Shown: positions 1,236 to 53,304 of the stretch, piece after piece
Position numbering within the stretch: the stretch's first letter is position 1
How the letters are laid out: each line of letters opens with the position of its first letter
NCBI GenBank assembly: GCA_947166445.1
Contig: CAMVED010000007.1
Span: forward strand, 1-55,439
Direction: 5' to 3'
From: an uncultured Mycoplasmatota bacterium
GTDB taxonomy: Bacteria; Bacillota_I; Bacilli_A; RF39; UBA660
Length of the DNA stretch: 55,439 nucleotides
Position numbers and translations under genes: made by a program
Notes under the pieces: model-generated
What the model was told of the DNA's origin: nothing
Databases searched by the model: none
Seen by the model: the letters and a program-made list of their open reading frames with translations, nothing else

Positions 1236-2127
1236 TTATAAACTATTTAAAGACAATGGATTAAGTATAAGAAGTATAAAAAAAATAAATAGTGCATATT
1301 TGGTTAGTGATGGTAAAAAAAGATATGTAATAAAAAATAATAAAAGTGATTTAAAGAGCAGATTTGATTATTTGAGTTCTAGGAGCTTTAATAGTTTTCC
1401 AAGTTATTATAAATTAGATAGTTATGACATTTATGAGTACATAAACGATAGTAATCTTTCGATTGAAGAACGTCTTTATGAAATGATTAATTTAATTATT
1501 TTGTTACATATGAAAACAACTAGATTTAAAAATATAGATATAGATGATTATAAAATTATATATGAAGATTTATTAAAAAAAATAGAATATTTAAATAATT
1601 ACTATATAACTTTAAATGATTCAATTGATAATGAAATATATATGTCTCCTTCTCATTATTTATTAGTACGCAATATTTCAAAAATTTATGGAGCTCTTTC
1701 TTTTTGTAGAAATGAATTAGATAACTGGTATGATCTTATTAAGAATAGTAATAAACAAAGAGTAGTATTAATACATAACAATTTGGATTTATCTCATGTT
1801 TTATTTGATAAAAATTCTTATTTAATAAGTTGGGATAAGTCAAGAATTGATCTGCCTATATATGATTTAGTTAGCATTTATAATAAGTATTATGATAAGA
1901 TGGATTTTGATATTTTATTAAATCATTATCAAAAAAAATATCCACTTTCAAAAGAAGAATTAAAATTGTTTTTTATTATGATATCGATTCCTAAGAAACT
2001 GGAGTTTACTAATGATGAGTTTAACAATATTAAAATAGTGAAAAAATTAATAAAGCAAATTAGTAAGGGAGATAGTTTGATAAGACTATATTATGATAAA
2101 AGAAAAAATCAGACAAGTTTAGTCTGA
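1228..2127 (+). CDS. ysxE: YsxE/CotS-family spore-coat-associated kinase-like protein
   Basis: A 299-residue protein with an aminoglycoside-phosphotransferase-like fold. The C-terminal half carries LIHNNLDLSHVLF, which corresponds to the HGDLHPGNILF catalytic loop, and then LISWDKSRIDLPIYDL, which corresponds to the metal-binding IDWD...PxxDL segment. In this copy HGD has become HNN, so the usual catalytic aspartate is missing and the protein may be a pseudokinase, as suspected for some coat relatives. It overlaps the spoVID-like gene, as expected for translational coupling, and this order matches Bacillus spoVID-ysxE. The stop codon lies inside a bidirectional terminator. Confidence 0.75.
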   Translation: MINYKLFKDNGLSIRSIKKINSAYLVSDGKKRYVIKNNKSDLKSRFDYLSSRSFNSFPSYYKLDSYDIYEYINDSNLSIEERLYEMINLIILLHMKTTRFKNIDIDDYKIIYEDLLKKIEYLNNYYITLNDSIDNEIYMSPSHYLLVRNISKIYGALSFCRNELDNWYDLIKNSNKQRVVLIHNNLDLSHVLFDKNSYLISWDKSRIDLPIYDLVSIYNKYYDKMDFDILLNHYQKKYPLSKEELKLFFIMISIPKKLEFTNDEFNNIKIVKKLIKQISKGDSLIRLYYDKRKNQTSLV

Positions 2128-2137
2128 TTTTATTTTG
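2101..2137. terminator. Bidirectional terminator between convergent genes
   Basis: AATCAGAC (2107-2114) and GTCTGATT (2122-2129) form a perfect 8-bp stem with a 7-base loop. T-rich flanks follow on both strands. It covers the stop of the ysxE-like gene and abuts the stop of the minus-strand thioredoxin gene. Confidence 0.8.
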
Positions 2138-2555
2138 CAAATCCTGCGGATTTTAGTTTTGATATTATTTTTTCTTTGGTTTGTTCTCCTTCGATTCGAA
2201 CTAGACTTTCACTGCCTTCATCGAAGAATAATACGGTAGGTGTGCCTTTAACATTAAATGTATCAGTGTATTCTTTGTTTTCTTCTTCAGAAAGGTTAGC
2301 AATATTTAAAACATATGCTTCTAGTTTTGTTTCTTTTAAACTGCTAACAAATCTTGGAGTGAATACTTTACAATGTTCACAATCTGTTTGTTTAATGTAT
2401 AGAATAAATCTATCACCTTTTTCTTTTTTCTTTATAACTTTACTTAATGTAATGTCATGTAAGTATTTGCTTTCATTATCTGTGAAAACTATTGATATTA
2501 CTAGTAGAGTTATAATTACAATTCCTAAAATTATTAACCATTTATATTTTTTCAT
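2130..2555 (-). CDS. Membrane-anchored thioredoxin-like protein
   Basis: A 141-residue protein with an N-terminal membrane anchor (residues 6-25, WLIILGIVIITLLVISIVF) followed by a thioredoxin fold. The fold has the redox motif CEHC (YIKQTDCEHCKVFTPRF) and the cis-proline loop GTPTVLFFDEG, so it should act on thiols outside the cytoplasmic membrane. It is transcribed toward the ysxE-like gene and diverges from the T4SS locus, whose first gene starts 140 bases away. Two T4SS pilins carry paired extracellular cysteines, so these could be substrates; that link is inference only. The start has a good RBS on the minus strand (GGAGGTG). Confidence 0.85.
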   Translation of the reverse strand: MKKYKWLIILGIVIITLLVISIVFTDNESKYLHDITLSKVIKKKEKGDRFILYIKQTDCEHCKVFTPRFVSSLKETKLEAYVLNIANLSEEENKEYTDTFNVKGTPTVLFFDEGSESLVRIEGEQTKEKIISKLKSAGFAK

Positions 2556-2643
2556 AAAACACCTCCATAAAATAATAACATAGTTTTTTGATAAAATAAA
2601 TAGTATATATTGAAAAACAGTATAAAATAAAACATATAATATA

Positions 2644-2673
2644 TTGACTATTTAGTAGAAAATGTGGTATAAT
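2644..2673 (+). promoter_or_regulatory. Sigma-A promoter of the first pilin gene
   Basis: TTGACT (2644-2649), an 18-base spacer and TATAAT (2668-2673) with a TG extension. An ATG at 2662 lies inside this promoter, so it cannot be the start of the downstream gene. Confidence 0.75.
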
Positions 2674-2697
2674 TTACAAGAAATTGGTGGTGATTTA

Positions 2698-3105
2698 ATG
2701 AATTCATTTTGTGCAGAAACTGCAGGAATATGGAAGGTAGTAGGTTTCATTATTTATATAATAAGAATTGCTATTCCGATTATTATAGTACTTCTTGGAA
2801 CACTTGATTTAGGAAAGGCTGTAATAGCGGGAGAAGATAAAAAAATAAAGGAATCTCAAAAATCATTCTTATTAAGATTAGTTTATGGTATTGCAATATT
2901 CTTTGTGTTTAACATAGTATATGTAATATTTGGTTTGCTAGGATTAGATCTTAATAGTGGAGCTCCTAGAGTATGTTGGCAATGCGCTACAAAACCTAAT
3001 GGTAGTGAATGTGAAAGTTATATAAAAGATGTTGACTTTGGTACTATTGATGGTTACGATAATTCTGAAAGTGGTGTTGCTGAGCATTCAAGTGAAGAAG
3101 CATAG
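2698..3105 (+). CDS. VirB2/TrbC-like pilin subunit 1 of the T4SS
   Basis: A 135-residue two-helix membrane protein. Helix 1 is VVGFIIYIIRIAIPIIIVLL. A short charged loop follows (DLGKAVIAGEDKKIKESQ), and helix 2 is YGIAIFFVFNIVYVIFGLL. The small size, two hydrophobic helices and polar loop fit the VirB2/TrbC pilin fold. Cysteines sit near the N-terminus (SFC), in a CWQC motif just after helix 2, and again at SEC, all predicted to be outside. The start at 2698 is chosen because GGTGGTGAT precedes it and the promoter covers the upstream ATG. It is homologous to the next two genes. The C-terminal 25 residues are acidic and specific to this copy. Confidence 0.7.
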   Translation: MNSFCAETAGIWKVVGFIIYIIRIAIPIIIVLLGTLDLGKAVIAGEDKKIKESQKSFLLRLVYGIAIFFVFNIVYVIFGLLGLDLNSGAPRVCWQCATKPNGSECESYIKDVDFGTIDGYDNSESGVAEHSSEEA

Positions 3106-3123
3106 AAAAATTCAAAAAATAGT

Positions 3124-3152
3124 TTGACACTATAGTGTGTATATAGTATAAT
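3124..3152 (+). promoter_or_regulatory. Consensus sigma-A promoter of the second pilin gene
   Basis: TTGACA (3124-3129), a 17-base spacer and TATAAT (3147-3152). This perfect consensus is the best promoter in the window and suggests abundant pilin 2. Confidence 0.85.
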
Positions 3153-3194
3153 TTATTTATGATAATATAAATTAGAGGAAAGAGGTAGAAGAAA

Positions 3195-3521
3195 ATGATA
3201 CAAGTATTAGCAGATTTTTGTACTGATACAGCGCCTGTTTGGGGGCTTATTGGTAGTATAGTTACAATCATACAAATTGCTGTTCCGGTAATAATTATTT
3301 TATTAGGAACAATTGATTTAGGAAAGGCTGTAATGGCAGGTAAAGATGATGAAATAAAAAGTGCTCAAAAAATGTTTATTAAAAGACTTATTTATGGTGT
3401 TGCAGTATTCTTTGTTGTATGGGTAGTTAAAGCTGTATTTAATTTAGTGGCAAATGCTAACGTTGAATCTTCAGTTTGTTGGCAATGTGTAGCTAAACCT
3501 TCAAGTTGTCCTAAAAACTAA
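3195..3521 (+). CDS. VirB2/TrbC-like pilin subunit 2 of the T4SS
   Basis: A 108-residue protein clearly paralogous to the preceding one. It shares the helix 1/loop pattern IQIAVPVIIILLGTIDLGKA, the loop MAGKDDEIKSAQKMFIKR and the second helix YGVAVFFVVWVVKAVFNLV. The same four cysteine positions recur: ADFC before helix 1, then CWQC and SSC after helix 2. It has its own perfect promoter and a downstream terminator, so it is probably expressed as a separate, strongly transcribed unit, as expected of a major pilin. The RBS is AGAGGTAG upstream of the ATG. Confidence 0.75.
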   Translation: MIQVLADFCTDTAPVWGLIGSIVTIIQIAVPVIIILLGTIDLGKAVMAGKDDEIKSAQKMFIKRLIYGVAVFFVVWVVKAVFNLVANANVESSVCWQCVAKPSSCPKN

Positions 3522-3532
3522 TAAAAAAGATT

Positions 3533-3573
3533 AAAAAAGATGTAAAATTTATTGTTTTGCATCTTTTTTTTTG
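3533..3573 (+). terminator. Terminator after pilin 2
   Basis: A long A/T stem built on AAAAAGATG (3533-3541) and CATCTTTTT, ending in a T run. It separates pilin 2 from the downstream genes. A TATAAT at 3575-3580 directly after it probably starts the next transcript. Confidence 0.75.
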
Positions 3574-3619
3574 TTATAATATAATAGGTTAATAGTTTGT
3601 GAATATGAAGGTGATAGTC

Positions 3620-3949
3620 GTGATAGATATAATAAATAATTTAAATGTTTTAGGAATTTTTACTGATATAACTGATTGTGGATCAGTTTTAGGAGCGGAT
3701 TTAACAGAAGTTTTAAAGGATATTTATAAAGCTATTCAAATTGCTGTGCCTGTTTTAGTTATACTTTTATGTTCTGTAGATATAGCTAAAGCTGTAGTCG
3801 CTCAAGAAGATAAGGATATGCAGGCTGCTGTTTCTAAGTCTATAAAAAGAGTTATTATTGGATTAGTTATATTCTTTGTACCACTTATAATAGATGTATT
3901 ACTAGATTTAGTAGGTCTTGCAAGTGGCACTTGTGGTATAGGAGGTTAG
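3620..3949 (+). CDS. VirB2/TrbC-like pilin subunit 3 of the T4SS
   Basis: About 109 residues from the GTG at 3620, which is preceded by AAGGTGAT; alternative upstream starts at 3599 and 3605 lack an RBS. It shares the core AIQIAVPVLVILLCSVDIAKA, a charged loop (AQEDKDMQAAVSKSIKR) and a second helix (VIIGLVIFFVPLIIDVLLDL) with the other two pilins. It lacks the CWQC motif but keeps one cysteine before helix 1 (TDCGS) and one after helix 2 (GTCGIGG), so a single disulfide could join the two ends. It lies 4 bases before the VirB6-like gene and is probably cotranscribed with the secretion machinery. Confidence 0.7.
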   Translation: MIDIINNLNVLGIFTDITDCGSVLGADLTEVLKDIYKAIQIAVPVLVILLCSVDIAKAVVAQEDKDMQAAVSKSIKRVIIGLVIFFVPLIIDVLLDLVGLASGTCGIGG

Positions 3950-3953
3950 TAGT

Positions 3954-6635
3954 ATGGTGCAAATATTAGCATTTTTACCTGGGGCACTTTTTGGTATACT
4001 TGCTAGTTTATATGGTACAGTTGCAAGAATTTATGACATAATGCTTAGTTTAACTGGTTATTACCGAGATGGTGGTATTCCTGATAATTATATAATTACA
4101 ACGTCTAGTATAACAACTACTATGTATACTTTAGCTGGCGTTTTTATGCTATTTAGAGTATCTGTTTCAATGATAAATATGTTGATTGAACCTGATAGAA
4201 TAAATGATAGACAAGCTGGGGCAGGGAAACTTCTTACTAGAATTATAACTAGTTTAGCTATGCTTCTTATATTTGTTCCAACTGGGTGGATTTTTAGTAA
4301 AAATCCTGATAATCCAGGTATTTTGTTGAGAGTTGAAAAGGCCCTTTTAGCTCAAGACGGATTAATTAATAATATGATGCCTGAGATTAATGGTGAAAAA
4401 GGTAGTTTAGAAGGCTCAGATAAAAATAGTGCTTCGTTAATTGAAAGTGTTAATGCAGTGCCTGCTGATCAATTCTTTGGTGAAGATAAAAAAGCTGGTT
4501 ATGATTGCTATTATGTAAATGTTACTAATTCTGATGAGAGGGTTGCTCAAAAAATGGACGGAACTACTGATGGACCTTCTTCTAAAAGCTTAACTAGAAT
4601 ATCTGGTGTAATGCATTTAACTTTTTATCCAGATAAAACAGGAAAATCAAATTTGTGTCAACCATATGCGTTTGGTGATAGTTGTAATTTTAGTTATTCT
4701 TCTGAAACTACAAGTCCTTATACTGATTTAACTTCTAGGATTGTACAAGATAAACTTAAAGATGGATGGTCATCAACATATAATTGTCCAAATTATTTAA
4801 ATGAAAACCATGTCGGAGGTATTAAAGCTGAGGATGCTGGTTCAGATGCTTGGTATCAGTCTGGTAATCAGGGTTGGTATGGTGGATGGCATTCTTTGGA
4901 TACAATGAAAGCTGCTATTGGTGCTCGAAATAGTACCACTAATGTAGTTGGCAATGATTCAACAAAAGTATCTGCCATTAGAAATTTATTGGGTTTAAAT
5001 GGTGAATGGTTATATGGGGTTAGTGACGAAGCGATTGATTTTTCACAAAGCGCTTTATCTTCATTTTTACAGTGTACTGAAAACAATCAAGATTGTGAAG
5101 AACTGAAATACGGTGCTCTTTTATCTACTGATGGTAATGCAAATATTGCTGATGCTTTAAATGAAGAACACCCAACAATGACACTTGACTTTATGATTGG
5201 TGTTGTTGCAGGAATAGGTTTTGTTGTTTGGATTGCTTTATTGTGTGTTGATGTTATTATTCGTAGGTTCAAATTAATGCTGTTAGAAATGATGGCACCT
5301 ATACCGATAATTGCATATGCTGATCCTAAAGATGAAACGTTTAATAAATGGGGAAAAATGTATATTTCGACTTATTTAGATTTGTTTTTAAAATTAATTG
5401 CTATTGCATTTGCAATTGCACTACTTAAACAAATAAGAGGTGCATTTACTGACTCTGGGCTTTTAATGCTTTTCTATATTATTGCAATACTTTTATTTGC
5501 TAAAATGGTACCTGATATGATATCGAATATTTTTGGTATAAAGATTAGTTCTGGTACATTTAAAGATATAGGAAATATGTATAAAAAAACACTTGGAATA
5601 GGTACAGGGGTTGCTTTAGGAACTGCTGCTGGTGTTATGTCTGGTTGGGGAGCTGGAGGCGGTTTTGGTACTTCATTTTTTGGAGGTTTACGTGGAGCTG
5701 CAACTGGTGCGAAAGCTGGTAGTAGTGGAAAATTAAGTAATGTACTTAGTAATACAAAAAGTGTTGCTGCTCATGGAAAATTTATAAGAGAAAAAAATAG
5801 AGATGGTTCTACTTTCTGGGGTAGAGCACAATCTGCTACTCAAGATTTTTTTGGAATTGATTCTCAAGCTGATATTACTGCAAGAGAGATTGCAATGGGA
5901 CGAATTGAATCTGAGAAAGTTGGTCGAGAATTGGCTGAAAAAGAGAGGGCAATTGCAAATGAGGAAAGAGAATTGTTGGAACCTTTGAAAAGGGAAAAGC
6001 AAATGCTTGATCTTTACGAAAAACATATTAAATCAGGCCAAGATAGAGCTAAAACTTTAATGGGCTTTCATGTGTATGATGATGTGGTGCCTGAAGTTAA
6101 GGCATATTTTGAAGAAAAAGCTAATTATGATAATTTGAAGAGTAATGGTTTCTTGAAAACTGTTATTGATGCTAAAACTGGAAAGCAAATTAAAGTACAA
6201 ATGAGTAATACTGAAATTGCTGATTTAGAAAGAAAAGTCAGTCAAATGAATTATGCAGCTCAAGAGGGTACATTGGATTATGTTCTTAATAATTTGAATG
6301 CAAAAAATGATAAAGGTGAGTTCATAATTGATAGTGTTGTTAGAGATGCATTTAATAGTGCTAATAGTGTAGGAACTGAAATTGGTTTTGATGAGGCTGT
6401 TACATGGAAAGGTTCTGATGGATTTAAAAACAAAAATGCTGCTTCTCAATCTAGAAATACTGAGATTTCTAATCAAGCTTCTGCTATTGAACGTGAGGCT
6501 GATCTTCAACGTAGTGATCTTAATCAAGAAAAACGTCAACTTGAAGCTAAAAAACAATCTCTTGATGAACGTGAATCTCGACTTAAGCTATCTCCTGAAA
6601 AAGCTAATGATGACGCAGTTAGAGAAAAGAAATAA
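3954..6635 (+). CDS. Large VirB6/TrbL-like T4SS inner-membrane channel protein
   Basis: An 893-residue polytopic protein. Three hydrophobic segments lie in residues 1-120. A predicted exterior domain of about 280 residues follows, with six cysteines (DCYY, LCQ, DSC, YNC, QCT, DCE). The conserved VirB6/TrbL membrane core is at about 410-525 (MIGVVAGIGFVVWIALL, RRFKLMLLEMMAPIPII, DLFLKLIAIAFAIALLKQI). Next come a Gly/Ala-rich stretch (about 550-595) and a charged, coiled-coil-prone cytoplasmic tail (about 640-893). VirB6 forms part of the translocation path through the membrane. The ATG at 3954 has GGAGG upstream. Both the ectodomain and the tail are large for the family. Confidence 0.8.
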   Translation: MVQILAFLPGALFGILASLYGTVARIYDIMLSLTGYYRDGGIPDNYIITTSSITTTMYTLAGVFMLFRVSVSMINMLIEPDRINDRQAGAGKLLTRIITSLAMLLIFVPTGWIFSKNPDNPGILLRVEKALLAQDGLINNMMPEINGEKGSLEGSDKNSASLIESVNAVPADQFFGEDKKAGYDCYYVNVTNSDERVAQKMDGTTDGPSSKSLTRISGVMHLTFYPDKTGKSNLCQPYAFGDSCNFSYSSETTSPYTDLTSRIVQDKLKDGWSSTYNCPNYLNENHVGGIKAEDAGSDAWYQSGNQGWYGGWHSLDTMKAAIGARNSTTNVVGNDSTKVSAIRNLLGLNGEWLYGVSDEAIDFSQSALSSFLQCTENNQDCEELKYGALLSTDGNANIADALNEEHPTMTLDFMIGVVAGIGFVVWIALLCVDVIIRRFKLMLLEMMAPIPIIAYADPKDETFNKWGKMYISTYLDLFLKLIAIAFAIALLKQIRGAFTDSGLLMLFYIIAILLFAKMVPDMISNIFGIKISSGTFKDIGNMYKKTLGIGTGVALGTAAGVMSGWGAGGGFGTSFFGGLRGAATGAKAGSSGKLSNVLSNTKSVAAHGKFIREKNRDGSTFWGRAQSATQDFFGIDSQADITAREIAMGRIESEKVGRELAEKERAIANEERELLEPLKREKQMLDLYEKHIKSGQDRAKTLMGFHVYDDVVPEVKAYFEEKANYDNLKSNGFLKTVIDAKTGKQIKVQMSNTEIADLERKVSQMNYAAQEGTLDYVLNNLNAKNDKGEFIIDSVVRDAFNSANSVGTEIGFDEAVTWKGSDGFKNKNAASQSRNTEISNQASAIEREADLQRSDLNQEKRQLEAKKQSLDERESRLKLSPEKANDDAVREKK

Positions 6636-6652
6636 AAAGGATGTGATACTAC

Positions 6653-6976
6653 ATGGATTATAATTATTTGGTACCTGCTAATAGTAAGAAGCAGGGATTG
6701 ATATTTGGATTTTTAATGCCAATTGATTTAACTATTCTAAGTATTGGTGTAGGTGTCTCATTTCTGCTATTTATGATTTTTAGGAGTACTTCACTTGTTA
6801 TGAGTTTGCTTGAAGTTTTTCCTGCATTTGTTGTAGCATTCTTAGTTTTCCCAATACCTAATTATCATAATTCTAGGATATTCATTCGTGAGATGTATAG
6901 ATTCTATTTTGTAAATAGAAGAAAATATATGTGGAGAGGTTGGTGTTATAAATATGAACAATCAGATGACAAATAA
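6653..6976 (+). CDS. PrgI-like T4SS membrane protein (VirB3-like position)
   Basis: A 107-residue protein with two closely spaced transmembrane helices near its middle (LTILSIGVGVSFLLFMIF and a second of LLEVFPAFVVAFLVF), then a basic cytoplasmic tail with the aromatic FVNRRKYMWRGW motif. PrgI-family proteins in Gram-positive conjugation loci sit next to VirB4 and take the place of VirB3. That order is kept here. The gene overlaps the following VirB4 N-terminal gene by 23 bases. Confidence 0.75.
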   Translation: MDYNYLVPANSKKQGLIFGFLMPIDLTILSIGVGVSFLLFMIFRSTSLVMSLLEVFPAFVVAFLVFPIPNYHNSRIFIREMYRFYFVNRRKYMWRGWCYKYEQSDDK

Positions 6977-7610
6977 TAATCAAGTTAATCAAAGTATGAC
7001 TAGTGGTATTAATAGTTCTCAAGCTGGTACAAATGAGAAAGAAAATGGAAAAAAGCTTCCAAAAGCTGCTAAAAACAATCCTAAATATACTGAAAATTGG
7101 TTACCTTTGAAAGCTATTAGTAATGGTATTATGTATAACAACAAAAATGAAATGATTACAGGGGTGAAGATACAACCTAGAAATATCTTTATCCTTGATC
7201 AAGCTTCTATGGATAATGCCCTTATAGGACTTATGAATTTTTATAATACTATTGATTATGAATTTTGGCTTATTGTTGCAGATCGTCCTGTTGACATTGC
7301 TGTATATCAAGCTGAACTTCAGGTTTTATATAATAGAACGCAAGATCCTAGAATTCGTAAATTAATTGCTCAAGATATGCAAAAGGGTGATTATTTTATA
7401 AATAACGATGTTGTTGATACTGAGTATTTCATTTTATTTAAGGAAAGAAATGGAGAACTTCTTCAAAAGAAACTTCGTAATATGATTAATTCTCTTGCTA
7501 GTGCTGGTCTTGTTGCTAGTCAAACTAGTAATGATGATTTACGAATGATTATAGATAATTTCTTAAATGGGGGAAGAAAATATGAATCTGGAGGTGTGAT
7601 GCCAGTATGA
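6954..7610 (+). CDS. virB4: VirB4-like N-terminal domain encoded as a separate protein
   Basis: A 218-residue soluble protein matching the non-ATPase N-terminal portion of VirB4/TraE/CagE-type proteins (WLPLKAISNGIMYNNKNEMI, then GVKIQPRNIFILDQ). The first 40 residues are Asn/Gln/Ser-rich and probably disordered. Its stop codon overlaps the ATG of the ATPase gene as ATGA, so the two are translationally coupled. Together they give 814 residues, comparable with one complete VirB4. VirB4 powers pilus assembly and substrate transport. The split is a gene fission rather than a frameshift, since each half has its own proper ends. Confidence 0.75.
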   Translation: MNNQMTNNNQVNQSMTSGINSSQAGTNEKENGKKLPKAAKNNPKYTENWLPLKAISNGIMYNNKNEMITGVKIQPRNIFILDQASMDNALIGLMNFYNTIDYEFWLIVADRPVDIAVYQAELQVLYNRTQDPRIRKLIAQDMQKGDYFINNDVVDTEYFILFKERNGELLQKKLRNMINSLASAGLVASQTSNDDLRMIIDNFLNGGRKYESGGVMPV

Positions 7611-9397
7611 GTTTTTTCAAAAGTGAGGTAGCTCCGAAAGGACTTGATTTTTCGAATAGTAGTATGATAGTTGCTTCGGATAAATATATGACTATTTTAA
7701 CCGTTGTAGGTTATCCTAGATATGTGGGAGTAGGTTTTTTATCTAATATTACTAATATGCCTGGTGTAAAGATTGTTATAAAACATATTCCGGTACCTTT
7801 TTCTACTCTTACTAAAATGCTTAATAAAGAACTTGCTGCTATGAAGACAAGGTATCAAGAAGAGCATGATGCAACTCATCAAGAATCAATTAGACAAGAT
7901 TACGAAACTTTGGAATCATTTATTCAACAACTTGCTGCTGCTCAATCTAAAACATTTGATTTTCAAATGCATATTATTGTTTCTGGTAATTCTAAGGAGG
8001 ATGTTGATTTAAAGAAAGTTCAAATTAAGAATTATTTGGATGCAATGCAACTTCGTGCTATTCCTCTTAGGTTTGAACAAGAACAAGTATTAAAATCAAT
8101 GTTACCAGTTTTTCCTAAGCAAGAAATTGAAGAACGTATTGGTACTATAATGCCTAGTCCTACTATGGCTGGTATGTATCCATATATATTTGATAGTATT
8201 AAGGATCCAGGACCATCTGTTCTTCTTGGAACTGATTTTTCTGGTGGTGTTGTTATGTTTAATCAATTCCTTTATCAAACTAGAAAAGAACATAACAGAA
8301 CTAATGCTAATATGATTATATTAGGTACTTCTGGTAGTGGTAAGTCTACTGCTGCAAAACTATTACTTAGAACTGCTATTAGAAATAGTTACAAAATAGT
8401 GGCTATTGACCCAGAAAACGAACTTAAAGAAATGGTTGAAGCCACAGGCGGAGATGTAATCGATTTAGGTAAAGGTGGAGAATTTGGCCTTATAAATCCA
8501 CTTGAAGTACTAATTGATGCTGATGATGATGAATTAAGGCAAGGACTTGGATATACTGTTCTTACAAAAACTCTTCAATTTTTGAAAGGATTTATGAAAT
8601 ATTATGATCCATCTATTGAAGAGGATGTTCTTAATTTATTCATTGAACTTACTCAAGAAACATATCAAAGATTTGGTATTGGTTTCAATACAGATTTTTC
8701 TAACTTTACAAGTGAGAATTATCCGACTTTTGATGATGTTTATACTACTATAAAAGGTAAGCTTACATCTATGACAGATATGACTCATGAACGTGATATA
8801 ATGGAACGTTTGGAATTAAAAATTAGACCATTTGTCAATGAACTTAGATTTTTCTTTAATGGAAAAACTACTATAACTACTCATAGTAATTTTATAGTAT
8901 TTAATATAAGAGAACTTATGAATACTGATGTAAATATAAGAAATGCATTGTTATTTAACGTTCTTAAATATGCTTGGAGTTTGTGTTTAGATGCTAGTAT
9001 AAATACAGTACTTATGGTTGATGAAGCCCATGTACTTCTTTCTGGAGGTAATGTACTTGGGGCTGATTTCTTAGCACAAATTCAAAGACGTTCACGTAAG
9101 TATAACACAGGTAATATAATAATTACTCAACAACCTAGTGATTTTACAACTAGAGAAGTTATAACTCAAGGAAAAGCAATTTTTGATAATGCTTCTTACT
9201 ACTTAGTAATGGGACTTAAAAAACAAGCAGTAGAAGACTTATCATTACTTATAGATTTAAATGATAATGAAAAAGAAAGTATTAAACGTTATTCTCAAGG
9301 AGAAGCATTATTTGTATGCGGTTCTAGAAGAATGAGAATTTCAGTTATTGTAACACCAGAAGAATTAGATTCATTTGGTAGTGGTGGAGGACTATAG
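7607..9397 (+). CDS. virB4: VirB4-like T4SS ATPase
   Basis: A 596-residue ATPase. The Walker A motif LGTSGSGKST is at about residue 239, then VAIDPENELKEMV. Walker B is VLMVDEAHVLLSGG at about 467, followed by RRSRKYNTGNIIITQQPSDF, the arginine-containing motif typical of VirB4/TraC. The first 230 residues continue the VirB4 middle domain. It should act at the cytoplasmic face as a hexameric motor with the VirB6- and PrgI-like proteins. It is coupled to the preceding gene through ATGA, and the next gene follows after 22 bases with a good RBS (GGGAGG). Confidence 0.93.
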   Translation: MSFFKSEVAPKGLDFSNSSMIVASDKYMTILTVVGYPRYVGVGFLSNITNMPGVKIVIKHIPVPFSTLTKMLNKELAAMKTRYQEEHDATHQESIRQDYETLESFIQQLAAAQSKTFDFQMHIIVSGNSKEDVDLKKVQIKNYLDAMQLRAIPLRFEQEQVLKSMLPVFPKQEIEERIGTIMPSPTMAGMYPYIFDSIKDPGPSVLLGTDFSGGVVMFNQFLYQTRKEHNRTNANMIILGTSGSGKSTAAKLLLRTAIRNSYKIVAIDPENELKEMVEATGGDVIDLGKGGEFGLINPLEVLIDADDDELRQGLGYTVLTKTLQFLKGFMKYYDPSIEEDVLNLFIELTQETYQRFGIGFNTDFSNFTSENYPTFDDVYTTIKGKLTSMTDMTHERDIMERLELKIRPFVNELRFFFNGKTTITTHSNFIVFNIRELMNTDVNIRNALLFNVLKYAWSLCLDASINTVLMVDEAHVLLSGGNVLGADFLAQIQRRSRKYNTGNIIITQQPSDFTTREVITQGKAIFDNASYYLVMGLKKQAVEDLSLLIDLNDNEKESIKRYSQGEALFVCGSRRMRISVIVTPEELDSFGSGGGL

Positions 9398-9419
9398 ACT
9401 TCTGAAGGGAGGCATTTAA

Positions 9420-11720
9420 ATGAAACTTAAATTAAAAGCAACAAAAAGGGATTGGATGATATTTGGCGCATTTTCTTTACTTTTATTGGCTGTTGTATCA
9501 ATTTTAGTAAACAATATCAATTCTTTTTCTACAACTGGTAAGTTTGCAGGAATAGATCCTTTTCATGCTCTTATTCATAATTTTGGAGCTGTAATTTTGT
9601 TTTATGCTTTTGCTATGGGGTTTCTATTTGTAACTGTAAAAGATTATTTCTTTGATAGGACAACTGGAGGACCTGGAATAAGCTTTGGCCCAAAAGATGA
9701 AAAAGGTTTTTCAAGATGGTGTACTGATAAAGAAATGAAGGCTACACTATCTGAAGTTAATGTTAAAGACTCTGAATATGAACATGCTGGTTTTCCTATT
9801 CTGAGTACCGGTGATAAATTTTGGGTTGATGATGGCGAATCACATAATATAGTTATAGGTTCTACAGGTACTGGAAAAACACAATGTGTAATTCATCCTT
9901 TAGTAAAAATTCTTGCTAAAAAAGGCGAATCTATGATTGTAACCGATCCTAAAGGAGAAATATATCGTGAAAGCGCTGGCCTTTTAAAAGAAAAAGGTTA
10001 TCAAATAATTGTCCTTAATTTTCGTGATCCTCAAAAAGGTAATACATGGAATCCACTTAATTTACCATATAAACTATATAAACAAGGTAACAAAGATAAA
10101 GCTATGGAACTTTTAGATGACCTTGCTGCAAATATTCTTTATGATGATGCAGGAGGAGCTAGTAAAGATCCATTTTGGGAAAAAACTTCTGCCGATTATT
10201 TTGTAGGTCTTGCTTTAGGTTTATTCGAAGATGCTAAAGAAGAGGAAATTAACTTAAATAGTATTTCTCTTATGACTACTGCTGGGGAAGAAAGATTTGG
10301 TGGTAGAAGTACTTATATTAAAGAATATTTTAATGAAAAAGATCCTGCAGGGGCTGCTTATACAAGTGCATCTGGAACTATTACTGCTCCTGAAGAAACT
10401 AAAGGGTCAATTCTATCTACATTTAAACAAAAGATTAGACTTTTTGCTTCGCGTGAAAATCTATCTGAAATGTTATCTCAAAATGATTTTGATATAGATT
10501 CAATAGGTAAACAAAAAACAGCGGTATTTATGATTATTCAAGATGAAAAGAAAACATATCATGCACTTGCTACAATATTTATTAAGCAAGTTTATGAATC
10601 ATTAATAGATGTTGCACAACAACAAAAAAGTGGTGCACTTCCAGTAAGAACTAACTTTATACTAGATGAGTTTCAAAATATGCCGCCTTTAAAAGATATT
10701 ACTACAATGGTTGCAGCTGCTCGTTCTAGACATATTAGACTTACTATGATTATTCAAAACTTTGCAGGTCTTGAAGCTACTTATAGTAAAGAAGTTGCTC
10801 AAACTATAAGAAGTAACTGTAATAATTTATTGTATTTACTTACTACAGAGCTTGCTGCTCTTGAAGAAATTAGTAAACTATGTGGAGATAAGATGGTAAA
10901 GGTCGGAAGCGGCGATAAAGAGCGCGAAGAAGCTCGTCCTCTTATTACTGTAGCAGATCTTCAAAAGATGAAACAGTATGAAGCTATAGTTATCAGAACC
11001 AGACTTAACCCATTTAAAACTAAATTAAAACCTAACTTTGAAATCGATTGGGGTGGATCTAAAGTTGAAGCAGATCCATTTGTAGAAAGACAAAGTAGAC
11101 CTGTTAAAGTATTTGATATAAAAGAATTTGTTAAAGATAAAAGAAAAAATAAATTCATGAATATGCTTGAAAATGCTGGAGGTATGCCAGATGGTGGAAT
11201 GGGTATGGGAATTCCTGGAGGATTTCCTAGTCTTCCTGGTATGGGACCTGTTACATCGGTTAATACTAATCCATTTGGTAATGCTCATAATAACAATGCA
11301 CCAGTTAGTAATGAGCCATCTTCTGGATTAAATGTAGATGAATTAGTTAAGAGGATAGATGCTAAAATAGCAGAACTTGAAAAAGAAGAAGAGGAAGAAA
11401 GAAGAAAAATAGAAGAACAAAAGAAAAAAGAAAGTGAACAACTTAAAGAAAAACAACATGATGATGAACTTATTCCTGATAGTAAAGAACCTCAAAGTGA
11501 TGTGGTAACTTCTGATAATAATACTTCTGTGGCAGATGAAGTTTCTAATATTGCTCCTGCTATTTTGACAGGTTTTAAAGATAATAAAAAAGAAATTGAC
11601 AAAGTTGAGGATGCTGATGAAGCTGAACCAATGAAGAAGGGTGAACCTGTAGTTAACTCTGAAGTGTCGAATTATTTGGTTACCGATGATCAATTTTTTG
11701 ATGATTTCTTTGATGAATAA
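9420..11720 (+). CDS. virD4: VirD4/TraG-like type IV coupling ATPase
   Basis: A 766-residue protein with two N-terminal membrane helices (about 14-32 and 55-78). The Walker A motif GSTGTGKT is at about 147, then VTDPKGEIYRES. Walker B is FILDEFQNMPPL at about 413, and the sensor-like segment LTMIIQNFAGLEATY follows. Coupling proteins recruit substrates to the channel and use ATP to move them. Residues beyond about 590 form a Met/Gly/Pro-rich stretch and then a long acidic, coiled-coil-prone tail (about 630-766), where substrate or adaptor recognition could lie. It is the last gene of the locus and is followed by a terminator. No relaxase gene is adjacent. Confidence 0.93.
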   Translation: MKLKLKATKRDWMIFGAFSLLLLAVVSILVNNINSFSTTGKFAGIDPFHALIHNFGAVILFYAFAMGFLFVTVKDYFFDRTTGGPGISFGPKDEKGFSRWCTDKEMKATLSEVNVKDSEYEHAGFPILSTGDKFWVDDGESHNIVIGSTGTGKTQCVIHPLVKILAKKGESMIVTDPKGEIYRESAGLLKEKGYQIIVLNFRDPQKGNTWNPLNLPYKLYKQGNKDKAMELLDDLAANILYDDAGGASKDPFWEKTSADYFVGLALGLFEDAKEEEINLNSISLMTTAGEERFGGRSTYIKEYFNEKDPAGAAYTSASGTITAPEETKGSILSTFKQKIRLFASRENLSEMLSQNDFDIDSIGKQKTAVFMIIQDEKKTYHALATIFIKQVYESLIDVAQQQKSGALPVRTNFILDEFQNMPPLKDITTMVAAARSRHIRLTMIIQNFAGLEATYSKEVAQTIRSNCNNLLYLLTTELAALEEISKLCGDKMVKVGSGDKEREEARPLITVADLQKMKQYEAIVIRTRLNPFKTKLKPNFEIDWGGSKVEADPFVERQSRPVKVFDIKEFVKDKRKNKFMNMLENAGGMPDGGMGMGIPGGFPSLPGMGPVTSVNTNPFGNAHNNNAPVSNEPSSGLNVDELVKRIDAKIAELEKEEEEERRKIEEQKKKESEQLKEKQHDDELIPDSKEPQSDVVTSDNNTSVADEVSNIAPAILTGFKDNKKEIDKVEDADEAEPMKKGEPVVNSEVSNYLVTDDQFFDDFFDE

Positions 11721-11724
11721 TAAT

Positions 11725-11746
11725 ACCCTTATTTTAAGGGTTTTAT
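11725..11746 (+). terminator. Terminator ending the T4SS locus
   Basis: ACCCTT (11725-11730) and AAGGGT (11736-11741) form a stem with a small AT loop. TTTTATT follows. Confidence 0.75.
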
Positions 11747-11802: not shown

Positions 11803-12090
11803 ATGTATAAAAATATAAGAGCATGTGATTTAAAAGGATTAATTGGTAAAGTAAATATTATTGATATAAGGAAAAACTATTTATATAATTTGGGAGCTAT
11901 ACCGAGTAGTAAAAATGTTCCTAGTAGTTTTTTGCTTATGTATCCTGAAAAGTATTTAGAAAAAGATAAGGAATATTATATATATTGTAGTGGTGGTATG
12001 GAAAGTCCTAAGGTCTGTTCAGAACTTTTTAATAAAGGTTATAATGTAGTAAATGTTTTAGGTGGTTATAATGACTATGTGATAAGTTAA
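11803..12090 (+). CDS. Rhodanese-like sulfurtransferase domain protein
   Basis: A 95-residue single-domain rhodanese. IIDIRKNYLYNLGAIPSSKN is the N-terminal CH2A-like motif. The active-site loop YCSGGMES contains the expected cysteine, and LGGYNDYV ends the domain. Such small rhodaneses carry persulfide sulfur in sulfur trafficking. The RBS GGGAGG precedes the ATG. It stands alone between the T4SS terminator and truB, so no specific partner is indicated. Confidence 0.85.
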   Translation: MYKNIRACDLKGLIGKVNIIDIRKNYLYNLGAIPSSKNVPSSFLLMYPEKYLEKDKEYYIYCSGGMESPKVCSELFNKGYNVVNVLGGYNDYVIS

Positions 12091-16637: not shown

Positions 16638-16672
16638 TAATGTTATATTATAATTATAATAGAGGTGAAAGA

Positions 16673-17689
16673 ATGGACGAAAATAAGAACGTGAATGAAG
16701 AAGTGTTTACTACATACACAGGAATGAATTATATGGAAATGGAAAAGTTAATTGATGAAAAAATTTTACTGTTAAATAAGAAATTGAACGGTGATATAAC
16801 AGATAATGAACGTTCAAATGAGGGATTTCTATTATGGAATTGTAAAATGATTCTTAGAAACATACTCATGGCAACAGATAAGATAACTAACAAGTATAAA
16901 TCTGATATTTCAGATGAAACTTATGAAAAATACACTAAGCTAGCTGATATAATCAACAATGAACAAAAAACATGGACAAGCATGGATGCTATAAGAAATA
17001 CTTGTGAAAAAATTGCTAAATTTTCAAGCTTAAATACAAACGATAAAGAATTAAACAATTCAAATCAAGATTTTAATAATAAAGGATTAGGCTGGGATTA
17101 TATTACAGAAGTATTTGATAATTTATACCCAAATCAAGAACCAAAGCACTATGCACCAATGATTAAAGCACAATTTGGAGGACAGGATCCACTTGATGGA
17201 ATAAGCATATATGATGCAGGAGATTATTATCATTTTGTTACATATGGTTTTTCAGAAATATATGAAAGAGAAAATGATAGTGATATAAGTGGATATGGAT
17301 TTGAGCTTACATACAAACTAAAGAAAACAGATGCTATTGATGAACAAGAACTAAAAAACTTTACTGAAATACTTCAAACACTAGGAAGACATGTGTTTGG
17401 CTCAGGAGCTGTATTCAAACCATATGAATATATTTATACAGGTCAAACAGAAGGTATGGATTCAAAGCAAAAATCATTAATTACAGGCTTTGTTACAATT
17501 GAAGATCCACAAGCAAAAACAATAGATACCGTTAATGGAAAAGTTCAATTTGTCGAACTAATTGGAGCAACAAGTGATGAATTAAAAGTAATACTAAACA
17601 AAGAAAAAACAAAAGAGGAAGTAATAAATAGAATACTAGAACAATATGGCGATATTACAGATTACAACAGGAATAGTATAATGAATTAA
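16673..17689 (+). CDS. SUFU-domain protein, immunity-like
   Basis: A 338-residue soluble protein. The N-terminal 120 residues are helical and charged. The C-terminal two thirds match the suppressor-of-fused (SUFU) domain (GLGWDYITEVFDNLYPNQEP, FGGQDPLDGISIYD, YHFVTYGFSEIYE, GYGFELTYKLK). In bacteria SUFU-like proteins are known as immunity proteins in polymorphic toxin systems. No toxin gene is next to it here. The start at 16673 is set by AGAGGTGAAAG; an upstream in-frame ATG at 16640 lies before this RBS. The next gene, 18 bases on, belongs to another family often found as immunity. Confidence 0.8.
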   Translation: MDENKNVNEEVFTTYTGMNYMEMEKLIDEKILLLNKKLNGDITDNERSNEGFLLWNCKMILRNILMATDKITNKYKSDISDETYEKYTKLADIINNEQKTWTSMDAIRNTCEKIAKFSSLNTNDKELNNSNQDFNNKGLGWDYITEVFDNLYPNQEPKHYAPMIKAQFGGQDPLDGISIYDAGDYYHFVTYGFSEIYERENDSDISGYGFELTYKLKKTDAIDEQELKNFTEILQTLGRHVFGSGAVFKPYEYIYTGQTEGMDSKQKSLITGFVTIEDPQAKTIDTVNGKVQFVELIGATSDELKVILNKEKTKEEVINRILEQYGDITDYNRNSIMN

Positions 17690-17707
17690 TTAAGGGGAGA
17701 TATAATC

Positions 17708-18757
17708 ATGGATAATAAATTAATTTTTGATGAATGCCTTTTAATTAAAGAAGACTTAAATAAATATTTTGAGAATAACGATGAAATTAAAACAATAAGT
17801 ATGGGTAAGCAAGAGTTTGTTTCAGAACAATTAATTACATGTGACCCAGGTTGGATTGATCCAACGTATAATGAAATTTTTATAAACAAAATTCCTACAG
17901 GAACTTATGAAATAATAGGCAGTACTAAAAAAATAAATACTGATTATTTGTTAGCAGTTAAAATTAAAGTAAGAGAAGAAATATCTAAAAAGTATTATCT
18001 TGGTATATATTTAGAATCAGATATTGATGCAGTAAAGGACGATAAAGTAATTACATTTGGTGTAGATAATGGAGCTGCTTGTTTTCTAGATAAAACTACA
18101 TATGATAAATTATATAATCTTAGAAAAAAAGACTATGATAAATTTGATGATAGTATATATTTTGAATCCATGTATAATGAGGTTTCATTAGATGGAATAG
18201 GCGAATTTATTGAGTTCCAATCTGGATTTGGAGATGGTCATTACTCAACATATTTTGGATATAATGACAATAATGAATTATGTGATGTAGTAATAAAATT
18301 TATTGATTATGATAATCAAATACCTGTAAAAGAAAAAAAGATTGATACATCAGTTTTATCTACAACGCCTTTATTAGAAAGTTATAAAGACGAAGTGAAA
18401 GAAAGATATATCAATAATGGATACAAAATTAATGAAGATTTAAAAAATGAAATTATTTGTTTTGAAAACTCTAATTCTAAATACCGATATATGAATAAAT
18501 TAAAAATAAGCAATGGTCATATTGAACTAACTGATTATTCTTTGTATGGAGACAATCCAGATAATGCATTCGGAATTAAACTTGGCATGACTTTAGAAGA
18601 AGCTAAAGAACAATTATTTGCTCGTAATTTCAATATAGAAAATGATAACGATGATGTGATTGTGTTTATAAAATATAGTACAAAAATTCAATTAACTTGT
18701 TTAGAGAATAAGGTTATTAAAATCAATCCAATGATAAAAGGAGCAGATAAATATTAA
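17708..18757 (+). CDS. DUF4241-domain protein, immunity-like
   Basis: A 349-residue soluble protein. Residues about 20-210 resemble DUF4241 (DPGWIDPTYNEIFINKIPTG, TFGVDNGAACFLDK, IEFQSGFGDGHYSTYFGYND). The C-terminal 110 residues are a separate domain (AFGIKLGMTLEEAKEQLFAR) that I do not recognise. DUF4241 proteins have no established enzymatic role and are frequently listed among candidate immunity proteins. The RBS is AGGGGAGAT. The gene is probably cotranscribed with the SUFU gene and ends before a terminator. The extra C-terminal domain is unusual. Confidence 0.65.
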   Translation: MDNKLIFDECLLIKEDLNKYFENNDEIKTISMGKQEFVSEQLITCDPGWIDPTYNEIFINKIPTGTYEIIGSTKKINTDYLLAVKIKVREEISKKYYLGIYLESDIDAVKDDKVITFGVDNGAACFLDKTTYDKLYNLRKKDYDKFDDSIYFESMYNEVSLDGIGEFIEFQSGFGDGHYSTYFGYNDNNELCDVVIKFIDYDNQIPVKEKKIDTSVLSTTPLLESYKDEVKERYINNGYKINEDLKNEIICFENSNSKYRYMNKLKISNGHIELTDYSLYGDNPDNAFGIKLGMTLEEAKEQLFARNFNIENDNDDVIVFIKYSTKIQLTCLENKVIKINPMIKGADKY

Positions 18758-21469: not shown

Positions 21470-24277
21470 TTATTTTATTGGTGGGTGAGTAGTAAACTGA
21501 GTCGGCATAGAATTATATACTGGTATTTTAAATACATACGCTTTATTTAAAAGTTTTAGTTTACTATAGGTTTCATAAGTAGATAAACTTTCACCTGCAG
21601 GCGCCATTATATTCTCCATATATTGATGAGTATATCTTGTAGCAGTAGCATTTGGACCTGTATTAAATTTTTGATAGTATAAAGTATCTTGACCTTCATT
21701 TATATAACCATTGGCAATAAATGATGCTCCGTATTTAATGGCTTTTGCCCTAGTGTTCCATGGTGTACCGTCTTCATAACCAATTATTCCTGCGGCAGTT
21801 TTTAAACCGTTTAATATTGGAGAATCTCCTGTTGCACCTATATTATAGAAGTTATATATACTTTTTAATGATTTATCTACTTTTACGTTATACCATTCTC
21901 CAGATTTACATCCTACTTCTGGATTAATATAAGAAGAACATACATATCCAGTACCTGATTTATAGTTTATTTTGTACCATCCATCAGTACAATTTGATCC
22001 TTTTATAATTTCCTTACTAACTAATGAAACAGGGGTATCTTTTGTTAAAGATCCAAGTTTTTTTGAACTAGTATTTGTTTTTTCACGTACATTTACAGTA
22101 TTAGTTGCTAAGCCATTATATTTTAAAGTACTAACTAAAGTCAATGTATCATTTTTATTTACAGTCATTTTGTTGCCATTGCTATATTTTAATGATTTTG
22201 CATCAATATTAGCGTTTGCTCTAACATTTGCAATAGAGCCACTATTTATTTTGAAGTAATTTCCATCTTTTTTTCCAAACGCTGTACATACATATCCGGA
22301 ATTTGTTGTTCTGATTGTTGTTGTAACTTTACCAGAAACAGAGTCATAATTTTGATTAGTTCCTCCTTCTTGTTTTACTCTTGCTGCAAGATGTACAGGA
22401 CTAACTTTATATAGTTTTGCGGCATCTAAGAAATAGCCAGCGTATGTATCATTATCTAGGTATGTTCCTGATACTATACTTTTTATTGCAGATTTAGTGT
22501 GATACTTGCTATCATAACTTAAATTTTCAAAGGCAAATATATTTTGCTCATTTAAGTAATTTCTAGGATCAAGCATGTATGCAACTAAAGCATCTGAAGC
22601 TGTTCTCCATGGACATCCATCATGTCCACAAGATGAGGACTTTAGATATTCCATATATTTAGTAGACATTTCAATTAAGTTTTTGTATTCTTCGTTATCT
22701 ACGGCATCAGTAAATTTAACGCCAGTGTTTTCTGCTTTAAATATCCATTTAGGGTATTTTGAATGTAAGTATGAAAGAAATGGACAATAACTCGAAGGGA
22801 AACCCGCTTCTTTTAAAGTGTTACAGTATTCTTTATCAGTCTTTGTTACATCACTGTATTTTTCTACTAATGATTTACATATATATCCAGTTATATTGTT
22901 ATAGTATTTTACTTTATACCAGCCGACAGAGCATCCACTGTTTCCGGTTGCACTACCTATAACTTCGAATTCTGTTCCTAGAAAAACTCTATTTTGTATA
23001 GAACTATCAGTACTGGCTTTGGTTCTGACGTTACCATAGTTTTCTTTTAATCTATATGTCCACATATTAGTGGTGTAATAATATCTTTGGTTAGCAATTT
23101 TTACAGAATTTATTTTTTTTGATGATGCAATTGATGCTAAAGCTTTATTACCAATTTCAGTATTTTTTTTGCATAAATATGCGCTTTTGCCATTTATTGC
23201 AATTTTATACCAATAATCACATCCTGTTCCTTTTACTTTTGTAATGTTTTCAAAAATTATTGAATCATTTTTCTTTAATGTAGTAATAGGTGTATTATCA
23301 AATGAAGTTTTACTTCTTACATTAGTGGATGAAGTAGTGATACTTGTATTTTTTGCAGGGGATAGATATTGTGAGCATACATATCCTATTTTATTATTTA
23401 TTTTAATTTTATACCAGTTTTCACAACCAGATCCAGTTGTTTTAACAGTAGTAGCTAGAATAACTGGAGTCATGTAAGGTAAAGTAGTTATTTTAGCACT
23501 TTTTGTATTAGCTTCAGATCTAATATTTAATCCGTTCAAATTATTTACTCTATATACATATCTATTGGTAGTTACATCACTTTTGCATATGTATCTTGTA
23601 TAACCACGATAGAATATTCTCAACCAACCTTCATCACAGCCATCACCTTTATAAGAGTCTGTTTCGTATACTGTTACTGCTTGCCCATATTTTATAGTTG
23701 CTACTGTATTACTTTCTGAAGTAGGATTACTTTTAATTTTAGTGCCTTCAGTATTCATAATTACTGCTCTAGTTCTATCGTTGTAATTATCAACATATTT
23801 GCTACAAATGTATTTTTCAGAATCTGTATTATAGTTAATTTTGTACCAACCTTCGTCACAACCTTGACCTTCATATTTTTTAGTATCATCTAAAGTAAAA
23901 AGTTTGCCTTTATGAACGCTTTTATATAAATCGTAATTAGTTCCAGGTCCTGTTCTTACATTAGTACCCGCAGTATTAGTTTTTACTGTAATGTTAGATG
24001 TAGATACATCATCAGAGCATATGTATTTTACTTGACCATTTATATCTGCTTTATAAAAACCATTTATACATTCCTTTTCACTAGAAAGTGGAGAAACATT
24101 TAAAAGTGGAATTACGTCATTGTATTTAATATCTTTACTTGCAGTGTAGTTATAACCTGGTCCGGACCAAGTTGATGGGTCGTCATTAGTTACTCTAGCA
24201 TATGTTACTGCGTTTACATTAGAATAGGCCAATATACTCATAATAAATACAATAATAAATACTATATTTTTTTTCAT
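21470..24277 (-). CDS. Secreted multi-SH3b N-acetylglucosaminidase-like autolysin
   Basis: 935 residues with a signal peptide (IVFIIVFIMSILAYSNVNA). About six SH3b-like modules lie at 25-470, each ending in GCxxGWYKI...YIC and so each with a cysteine pair. A glucosaminidase domain starts at about 486 (PFLSYLHSKYPKWIFKAENT, DPRNYLNEQNIFAFE, HLAARVKQEGG; the Glu at about 638 is the likely catalytic acid). This domain is interrupted at about 647-800 by one or two further SH3b-like modules and resumes with YNFYNIGATGDSPILNGL, PWNTRAKAIKYGASFI and TRYTHQYMENIMAP. It should cut the glycan strands of peptidoglycan. The start at 24277 follows AAAGGATG. Confidence 0.85.
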   Translation of the reverse strand: MKKNIVFIIVFIMSILAYSNVNAVTYARVTNDDPSTWSGPGYNYTASKDIKYNDVIPLLNVSPLSSEKECINGFYKADINGQVKYICSDDVSTSNITVKTNTAGTNVRTGPGTNYDLYKSVHKGKLFTLDDTKKYEGQGCDEGWYKINYNTDSEKYICSKYVDNYNDRTRAVIMNTEGTKIKSNPTSESNTVATIKYGQAVTVYETDSYKGDGCDEGWLRIFYRGYTRYICKSDVTTNRYVYRVNNLNGLNIRSEANTKSAKITTLPYMTPVILATTVKTTGSGCENWYKIKINNKIGYVCSQYLSPAKNTSITTSSTNVRSKTSFDNTPITTLKKNDSIIFENITKVKGTGCDYWYKIAINGKSAYLCKKNTEIGNKALASIASSKKINSVKIANQRYYYTTNMWTYRLKENYGNVRTKASTDSSIQNRVFLGTEFEVIGSATGNSGCSVGWYKVKYYNNITGYICKSLVEKYSDVTKTDKEYCNTLKEAGFPSSYCPFLSYLHSKYPKWIFKAENTGVKFTDAVDNEEYKNLIEMSTKYMEYLKSSSCGHDGCPWRTASDALVAYMLDPRNYLNEQNIFAFENLSYDSKYHTKSAIKSIVSGTYLDNDTYAGYFLDAAKLYKVSPVHLAARVKQEGGTNQNYDSVSGKVTTTIRTTNSGYVCTAFGKKDGNYFKINSGSIANVRANANIDAKSLKYSNGNKMTVNKNDTLTLVSTLKYNGLATNTVNVREKTNTSSKKLGSLTKDTPVSLVSKEIIKGSNCTDGWYKINYKSGTGYVCSSYINPEVGCKSGEWYNVKVDKSLKSIYNFYNIGATGDSPILNGLKTAAGIIGYEDGTPWNTRAKAIKYGASFIANGYINEGQDTLYYQKFNTGPNATATRYTHQYMENIMAPAGESLSTYETYSKLKLLNKAYVFKIPVYNSMPTQFTTHPPIK

Positions 24278-24449
24278 AAAAGCACATCCTTTCATATTAT
24301 CTTTATATATTATATTATACCATCTATATATATATTTACCTAATTTTTAAACTGTTTTTTACATTTTTTACGTTTGGTTTTACACATTTATATGTAAAAA
24401 AATTCAAATTTAGTTTATCTTATGATATATTTTTATTGGAGATGATAAT
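24278..24449. promoter_or_regulatory. Divergent promoter region
   Basis: On the minus strand TGGTATAAT (24321-24329 region) is an extended -10 box for the autolysin operon. Upstream of it, TGTAAA-like words repeat three times on the minus strand (about 24357-24395), but with 12- and 9-base spacing. On the plus side a TTATGATAT-type -10 precedes the kinase gene. Confidence 0.4.
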
Positions 24450-51217: not shown

Positions 51218-51413
51218 TTGTAATAATCTAATAAAAAAAGTTAAGATATAGAATTAAATATATAAAAATGTATAATTTATTCGTTAATAGTAGAAATTAA
51301 ACAGGAATCTATCAAGATAGCTATAAAAGATGTTAATAATAATTATATATTTTTAATATAAAAAATATTAAAATAAGTAAAATAAACTAAAAAGAAATGG
51401 AGAATGAATTAAA

Positions 51414-51641: not shown

Positions 51642-51642
51642 A

Positions 51643-53295: not shown

Positions 53296-53304
53296 GGAGG
53301 CATC

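Follow-up and report, generated by a model that had tools for sequence, protein, structure and literature searches.

Organization of the locus

The window, that is, the whole stretch of 55,439 nucleotides that was analysed, is one complete contig (C7) of a metagenome-assembled genome (MAG; 755 kb, 52.7 % complete) of an uncultured Mycoplasmatota bacterium. Positions 2698 to 11720 hold a type IV secretion system (T4SS) unit comprising three pilins, VirB6, PrgI/VirB3, the VirB4 N-terminal domain, the VirB4 ATPase, and VirD4, with all named genes intact and on the forward strand (+). A preliminary description of this DNA had grouped these pilins, VirB6, PrgI, VirB4, and VirD4 into one unit, and both the reading of the open reading frames (ORFs) and Pfam and NCBIfam profiles bear this out.

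The three pilins are VirB2-like. The first gene, pil1 (2698..3105), falls into a homology cluster with PF18895 pilins and encodes two hydrophobic segments, an N- and a C-terminal cysteine, and a CWQC motif. Its ORF was listed from 2662, but 2698 (GGTGGTGATTTAATG) is the most probable translation start, given that the longer ORF would include the −10 box at 2668–2673. The next gene, pil2 (3195..3521), belongs to the homology cluster and matches PF18895 below the cut-off (3e-4, 21.1 bits), while pil3 (3599..3949) matches the same family (Pfam T4SS_pilin) above it (9e-7, 29.3 bits). One to four such pilins lie beside virB4 in nearly all loci compared, and 163 of 164 pilins contain at least two cysteines, which are paired.

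The claim that the unit has its own promoters holds for the pilin intergenic regions, which contain promoter sites of 11/12, 12/12, and 10/12, against a chance expectation for the whole region of 0.44 sites of 11 or more; counted overall, promoter-like sites are not above chance (47 against 55). The sigma-70-like site of pil1 (2644..2673, +, 11/12) recurs in the related loci L031, L032, and L034, and the consensus sigma-70 promoter of pil2 (3124..3152, +, 12/12) recurs in L031 and L034 (12/12) and in L032 (11/12); near-consensus promoters are likewise found upstream of most pilins in relatives across the genus. The proposed terminator is present as well but weak, consisting of an intrinsic-terminator-like hairpin after virD4 (11725..11741, +) with seven pairs, three of them G–C.

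Downstream of the pilins, a VirB6/TrbL-like polytopic channel protein (3954..6635; PF19597 5.5e-6, NF045848 3.6e-9) matches TrbL_4 and TrbL-like families of integrative and conjugative elements (ICEs) of mycoplasmas. Identity and hydropathy profiles delimit a large, fast-evolving loop (about residues 110–406) and a C-terminal region. A hidden VirB8 or hydrolase was sought in this loop, for which the structure model (pLDDT 42) was uninformative. The following PrgI/VirB3-like protein (6653..6976) is recognised by a weak match below the cut-off (PF12666, 0.0067, 17.4 bits) and by its conserved position. VirB4 is encoded by two overlapping ORFs, namely a separate TrsD-like N-terminal domain (6954..7610; NF045975 at residues 97–277, 4e-12), whose profile weakly matches TrsD of pSK41 (2e-4), and the ATPase proper (7607..9397; NF045975 6e-101, P-loop_TraG 7e-13, Walker A GTSGSGKS). 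A frameshift or assembly error as the cause is ruled out by the occurrence of the split in 81 of the 81 loci where both parts were found. PrgI and the two VirB4 pieces align in order along one 894-residue protein model from mycoplasma ICEs, NF045975, of which PrgI corresponds to the N-terminus. The last gene encodes a VirD4-like coupling ATPase of the CD1115 family (9420..11720; PF02534 2e-57, NF045973 above cut-off, Walker A GSTGTGKT) that ends in a low-complexity C-terminal tail; Walker motifs are thus kept in both ATPases. Together, VirB3/PrgI, VirB6, and VirD4 make up a FATA-like set in one operon, and the VirB4 ATPase is related to FATA systems according to the NF045975 and CD1110 models and a tree with plasmid and ICE VirB4s.

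Genomic surroundings

Divergently from the pilins, a membrane-anchored thioredoxin-like protein with a CEHC motif is encoded at 2130..2555 (−; Pfam Thioredoxin 3e-10, NCBIfam PDI domain 5e-12, weak TrbB). It adjoins the block in L031, L032, and L034–L036, i. e., in the genus and in a sister lineage (L035/L036), and has a putative functional tie to the T4SS. On the other side, a rhodanese-domain protein (11803..12090, +) lies downstream of virD4 in 52 of the 67 loci with virD4, always on the same strand. It was rejected as a strict member of the machine, as it is also encoded in genomes that have no T4SS and lies on a separate contig in some T4SS-bearing ones.

Several further genes of the window deserve mention in their own right. 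Positions 534–2127 encode a LysM (SpoVID-like) and a phosphotransferase-fold (YsxE-like) protein, i. e., genes of spore-coat type in a small-genome lineage. Two adjoining 349-residue genes, the second with a DUF4241 domain, occupy 16640–18757. A secreted protein of 941 residues (21470–24295, −), which contains six SH3_3 domains and probably ends in a glucosaminidase, is a candidate for a wall hydrolase encoded apart from the T4SS unit. Finally, a probable dlt operon (49709–54240; AMP-binding DltA-like, MBOAT DltB-like, and DltD-like) for D-alanylation of teichoic acids is notable, given that a loss of standard teichoic acid synthesis has been discussed for this lineage.

The spoVID/ysxE and truB/rel flanks had been put forward as an argument for residency. 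The flanks are poor evidence for it, since other species of the genus carry the cassette at different positions: synteny between ysxE and truB, which had been proposed as a check, is common only to the nearest relative G003, whereas in G001 the block lies beyond dtd, on the far side of truB–rel–dtd, and in G004 and G002 elsewhere in the genome. The block has thus shifted position during evolution, probably through rearrangement of the chromosome, and nothing points to a mobile element.

Distribution and inheritance

The VirB4 ATPase was searched in 147 genomes, 88 of them from the same family (the own genome included) and 59 from 18 other families of the class. Most of these are incomplete MAGs, so that absence from a genome weighs less than absence from a locus. 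Orthologues with 64–97 % identity were detected in 73 of the 88 family genomes, while the 59 genomes of the other families yielded nothing closer than about 33 % identity. Because orthologues were not found in the remaining 15 family genomes, the machine is not essential throughout the family. Named database records of orthologues are uncultured Bacilli/Mycoplasmatota, many from animal guts, and include Ca. Faecisoma, Coprosoma, and Scybalousia; this would fit family UBA660 of the order RF39. Across 80 named loci, the order pilins–virB6–prgI–VirB4 N-domain–VirB4 ATPase–(hydrolase, VirB8-like)–virD4 is conserved.

Judged by sequence comparison, inheritance of the T4SS is mainly vertical, because trees and distances of VirB4 and Rel agree: among 31 genomes, 15 of 28 splits in the VirB4 tree are common to the Rel tree, as compared to 0.2 expected with shuffled labels, and a correlation also holds between the distance matrices (Mantel r 0.73, p 0.0001). 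Two VirB4 splits with strong support are, by contrast, at odds with the Rel tree. VirB4 is under strong purifying selection (dN/dS 0.04–0.11), with a constraint equal to that on Rel and Ffh, while VirB6 (0.32–0.57) and several pilins evolve fast, and dS of the T4SS genes lies within the range of neighbouring genes. These rates suggest that the fast-evolving pilins and the VirB6 loop may be surface parts facing a changing partner.

The fuller locus of the family

Gene clustering across the 80 loci defines a fuller version of the locus, which is the one carried by most of the family. Its first part comprises CpaB-like, CpaF, TadB, TadC, Flp-like, TadE-like, and CpaE/TadZ-like genes followed by the pilins, and its second part VirB6, PrgI, the VirB4 N-domain, the VirB4 ATPase, wall hydrolases (in most family loci either M23 plus lysozyme or C39), the membrane proteins c10, c12, and c17, VirD4, and the rhodanese. 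The names CpaF and CpaB are backed by profile matches; TadB, TadC, Flp, TadE, and TadZ, for which Pfam and NCBIfam gave nothing useful, were named by position, size, and homology to plasmid Tad genes. The T4SS and the T4SS-type CpaF occur together in 65 family genomes, the T4SS only in 8, CpaF only in 8, and neither in 7, an association (Fisher p 0.003) that genome incompleteness inflates.

The window holds a reduced version without the Tad/Flp module, the cell-wall hydrolases, and the VirB8-like protein. The T4SS-type CpaF is absent from all five genomes of the genus, three of which are at least 91 % complete, and neither a hydrolase nor c10 was found at the loci of the genus. The T4SS-linked Tad module and the VirB1-like hydrolase are thus lost in the lineage of the window. 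The preliminary description was right that the unit encodes no VirB1-like hydrolase; as a trait of the system this does not stand, since most family loci carry hydrolases. Independently of this module, a second CpaF-like ATPase of about 445 residues, 26–31 % identical to the T4SS-linked one, is encoded in most family genomes and also in the genus without T4SS-linked Tad (for example, G001:C23:14866-15783 and G004:C4:4897-5796).

In relatives, c10 is present in tandem or fused and is confidently predicted to form one membrane helix and two NTF2-like domains (pLDDT 86). Foldseek matches were weak (best E 0.007, OrfG), and VIA-align ranked TcpC first (Z 10.4, 4.3 Å over 119 residues) closely followed by many unrelated NTF2 folds (Z 8–9). 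On the basis of fold, tandem-domain layout, and position, c10 is probably VirB8-like. Its profile had no match in the genus, nor in the controls that use c12/c17.

Relaxases and mobility

As previously stated, no relaxase, integrase, or resolvase is recognisable in the window (ORF reading across the window, Pfam for the unit only), and no attachment-site duplication is apparent either, with no direct repeat of at least 11 bp between the flanks. Five Pfam relaxase families were searched (PF03432, PF03389, PF01076, PF02486, and PF18555), the search covering all 88 family genomes for three of them and 53 for the other two. Resident VirB4s have none of the five within 20 kb, and the nearest relaxases on the same contig lie 60 and 72 kb away (G042, G012). 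The genome-wide relaxase search that had been advised detected none in the genus genomes G000, G001, G003, and G004, a result limited by the incompleteness of the MAGs.

Nine long, unsplit ICE-type VirB4s of the same family (in G002, G007, G012, G023, G029, G052, G056, G068, and G086) served as an internal control, and each has a relaxase within 6.5 kb; those in G002 and G007 are MobL proteins. The separate ICE of G002 (L165, G002:C5:1-14000, 1999-9044) encodes VirB6, PrgI, an unsplit VirB4, MobL (5827-7260), and its own VirD4. No mobile close relatives of the locus were found among viral contigs, and plasmid relatives all have less than 60 % identity (best about 30 %). Family-wide occurrence, tree congruence, purifying selection, relaxase-free surroundings, and the difference from the true ICEs that these genomes also carry all favour the earlier view of a resident machine that does not transfer itself, which is very probably correct.

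Relatives and origin

In the VirB4 tree, the resident group forms a clade with full support, whose long branch lies next to G092 and the MobL ICEs, while deeper forks are poorly resolved. The Exiguobacterium plasmid pEYLC1.2 (NZ_CP082335.1), one of the best plasmid relatives, encodes MobP3, VirD4, a pilin, TrbL, PrgI, the VirB4 N-domain, and the VirB4 ATPase, followed by CpaB, an AAA ATPase, CpaF, TadB, and TadC (with profile support). It thereby shares the split VirB4, the order pilin–VirB6–PrgI–VirB4 N-domain–VirB4 ATPase, VirD4, and, as in most family loci, the linked CpaF/TadB/TadC, but differs in its plasmid location, the MobP3 relaxase, and a VirB4 that is only about 28 % identical. Similarly, Sulfobacillus pY0017 (NC_016040.1) has a split VirB4 and CpaF/TadB/TadC like the family but differs by plasmid location and a MOBP relaxase (PMC6803676); Sulfobacillus plasmids had previously been described to carry both T4SS and Tad-like genes (PMC6803676), and Cutibacterium plasmids, too, are known to combine a tad locus with conjugation genes (PMC5696575). 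Both modules are also present on the 97.9 kb plasmid of the cold-seep Mycoplasmatota strain zrk4 (CP074574.1/L178; genome G136, contig C2), which carries a split VirB4, VirD4, and a CpaB–CpaF–Tad block and was typed as non-mobilizable. The Tad and T4SS hybrid is hence an old plasmid design, and the novelty is its chromosomal, relaxase-less form; a relaxase-bearing plasmid of this design is likely the kind of ancestor.

Other known systems resemble the locus in part. In the Trs system of pSK41/pGO1, the order of PrgI-like, TrsD (described in PMC12102498), and TrsE matches that of PrgI and the two VirB4 pieces, and VirD4 and a hydrolase are present, but the system is conjugative with a relaxase, its VirB4 forms a separate branch, and the pSK41 annotation has no Tad module. 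The ICEs of mycoplasmas and of the RF39 family (Mbov_0397-type VirB4) provide the best NCBIfam model for VirB4 and have the virB6–prgI–virB4 order seen here, yet differ by an unsplit VirB4 (774–789 aa), a nearby MobL relaxase, and their placement in a separate clade; mycoplasma ICEs were reported as a minimal machine without VirB1 or VirB8 (PMC12857230). The closest functional parallel, the T4SS of Patescibacteria (Ca. Southlakia epibionticum and relatives), is likewise chromosomal, relaxase-less, and found in small-genome hosts (PMC12102498, PMC12857230), with arrays of VirB2-like pilins (including PF18895), VirB6, PrgI/VirB3, a TrsD-like domain apart from VirB4, and, in many loci, hydrolase genes downstream of virB4. 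One species requires both the T4SS and the pilin array to grow as an epibiont on its host (PMC12102498, PMC12857230). Patescibacterial VirD4 is mostly unlinked, whereas here it lies in the operon, and many members of the family studied here add the Tad module. The hosts differ too (a Bacilli/Mycoplasmatota lineage as opposed to Patescibacteria), and the likeness lies in gene content.

Possible functions

The best explanation, which we hold with moderate confidence, is that of a domesticated, vertically inherited conjugation T4SS of monoderm type that has lost its relaxase and is kept for contact with other cells. An ancestor like the Exiguobacterium plasmid (with relaxase, VirD4, pilin, VirB6, PrgI, split VirB4, and Tad pilus) would have lost the relaxase and become chromosomal. 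The pilins, expressed from their own strong promoters, would build a short pilus or contact tip and may be disulphide-linked, perhaps aided by the neighbouring thioredoxin. VirB6, PrgI, and the two-piece VirB4 would form and power the membrane channel, into which VirD4 would feed substrates, most likely proteins. On the grounds of the fast-evolving pilins and VirB6 loop and the parallel with Patescibacteria, contact-dependent exchange with neighbouring cells is tentatively proposed as the most likely main role. Against this explanation count that VirD4 of the CD1115 class normally moves DNA, that cells may harbour relaxase substrates, as the MobL-bearing ICE of G002 illustrates, that the own genome is only 52.7 % complete, and that 15 family genomes yielded no orthologue. 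The machine could also be incomplete, as neither VirB8-like nor VirB1-like components were detected in genomes of the genus.

Mobilisation in trans, in which the channel and VirD4 would move mobilisable elements or pieces of the chromosome for relaxases encoded elsewhere, is a serious rival, albeit an unlikely one in our estimate. It would agree with the conjugative family of VirD4, with the many family genomes in which Mob_Pre or other relaxases are encoded at a distance from every VirB4, and with the MobL relaxase of G002; the latter, however, belongs to an ICE with its own T4SS, and in four of the five genus genomes a relaxase went undetected, yet the machine is strongly conserved. Still less probable is DNA uptake in the manner of Helicobacter ComB, feeding ComEC and supplying a nucleotide-poor, parasite-like cell with DNA or nucleotides. 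While ComEC is encoded in the own genome, in three of four genus relatives, and in most family genomes, and RF39 bacteria were reported to be unable to synthesise nucleic acids de novo (PMC13155120), the coupling ATPase VirD4 is of the export type, the genus also encodes a separate PilB/ComGA-like ATPase, and comEC, unlike the T4SS, is not essential in Southlakia (PMC12857230). An ICE that lost its relaxase and integrase only recently and is now stranded or decaying might be suspected from the relaxase-bearing plasmid homologue and the shifts of position within the genus. This scenario is contradicted by the conservation data, as the genes are all intact, family-wide, tree-congruent, and of low dN/dS, and no flanking repeat is present; we regard it as highly improbable.

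Implications

According to a 2025 review, VirB2 pilins were not found among Gram-positive T4SSs, Patescibacteria apart, and the known functions of Gram-positive T4SSs are nearly all DNA transfer (PMC12857230). Among the papers searched, none described such a T4SS for the lineage. It is conceivable, though at present doubtful, that an entire order of genome-reduced gut bacteria uses a piliated T4SS like that of Patescibacteria, often fused to a Tad locus, for contact with other bacteria, the machine being either shared by ancient transfer or domesticated independently. With the lineage studied here, resident T4SSs that have pilins but no relaxase would be known from two unrelated monoderm lineages, and co-option of such machines for cell contact would be recurrent in genome-reduced bacteria. 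This would also offer a testable explanation of how uncultured bacteria that are common in the gut acquire what they are unable to produce themselves.
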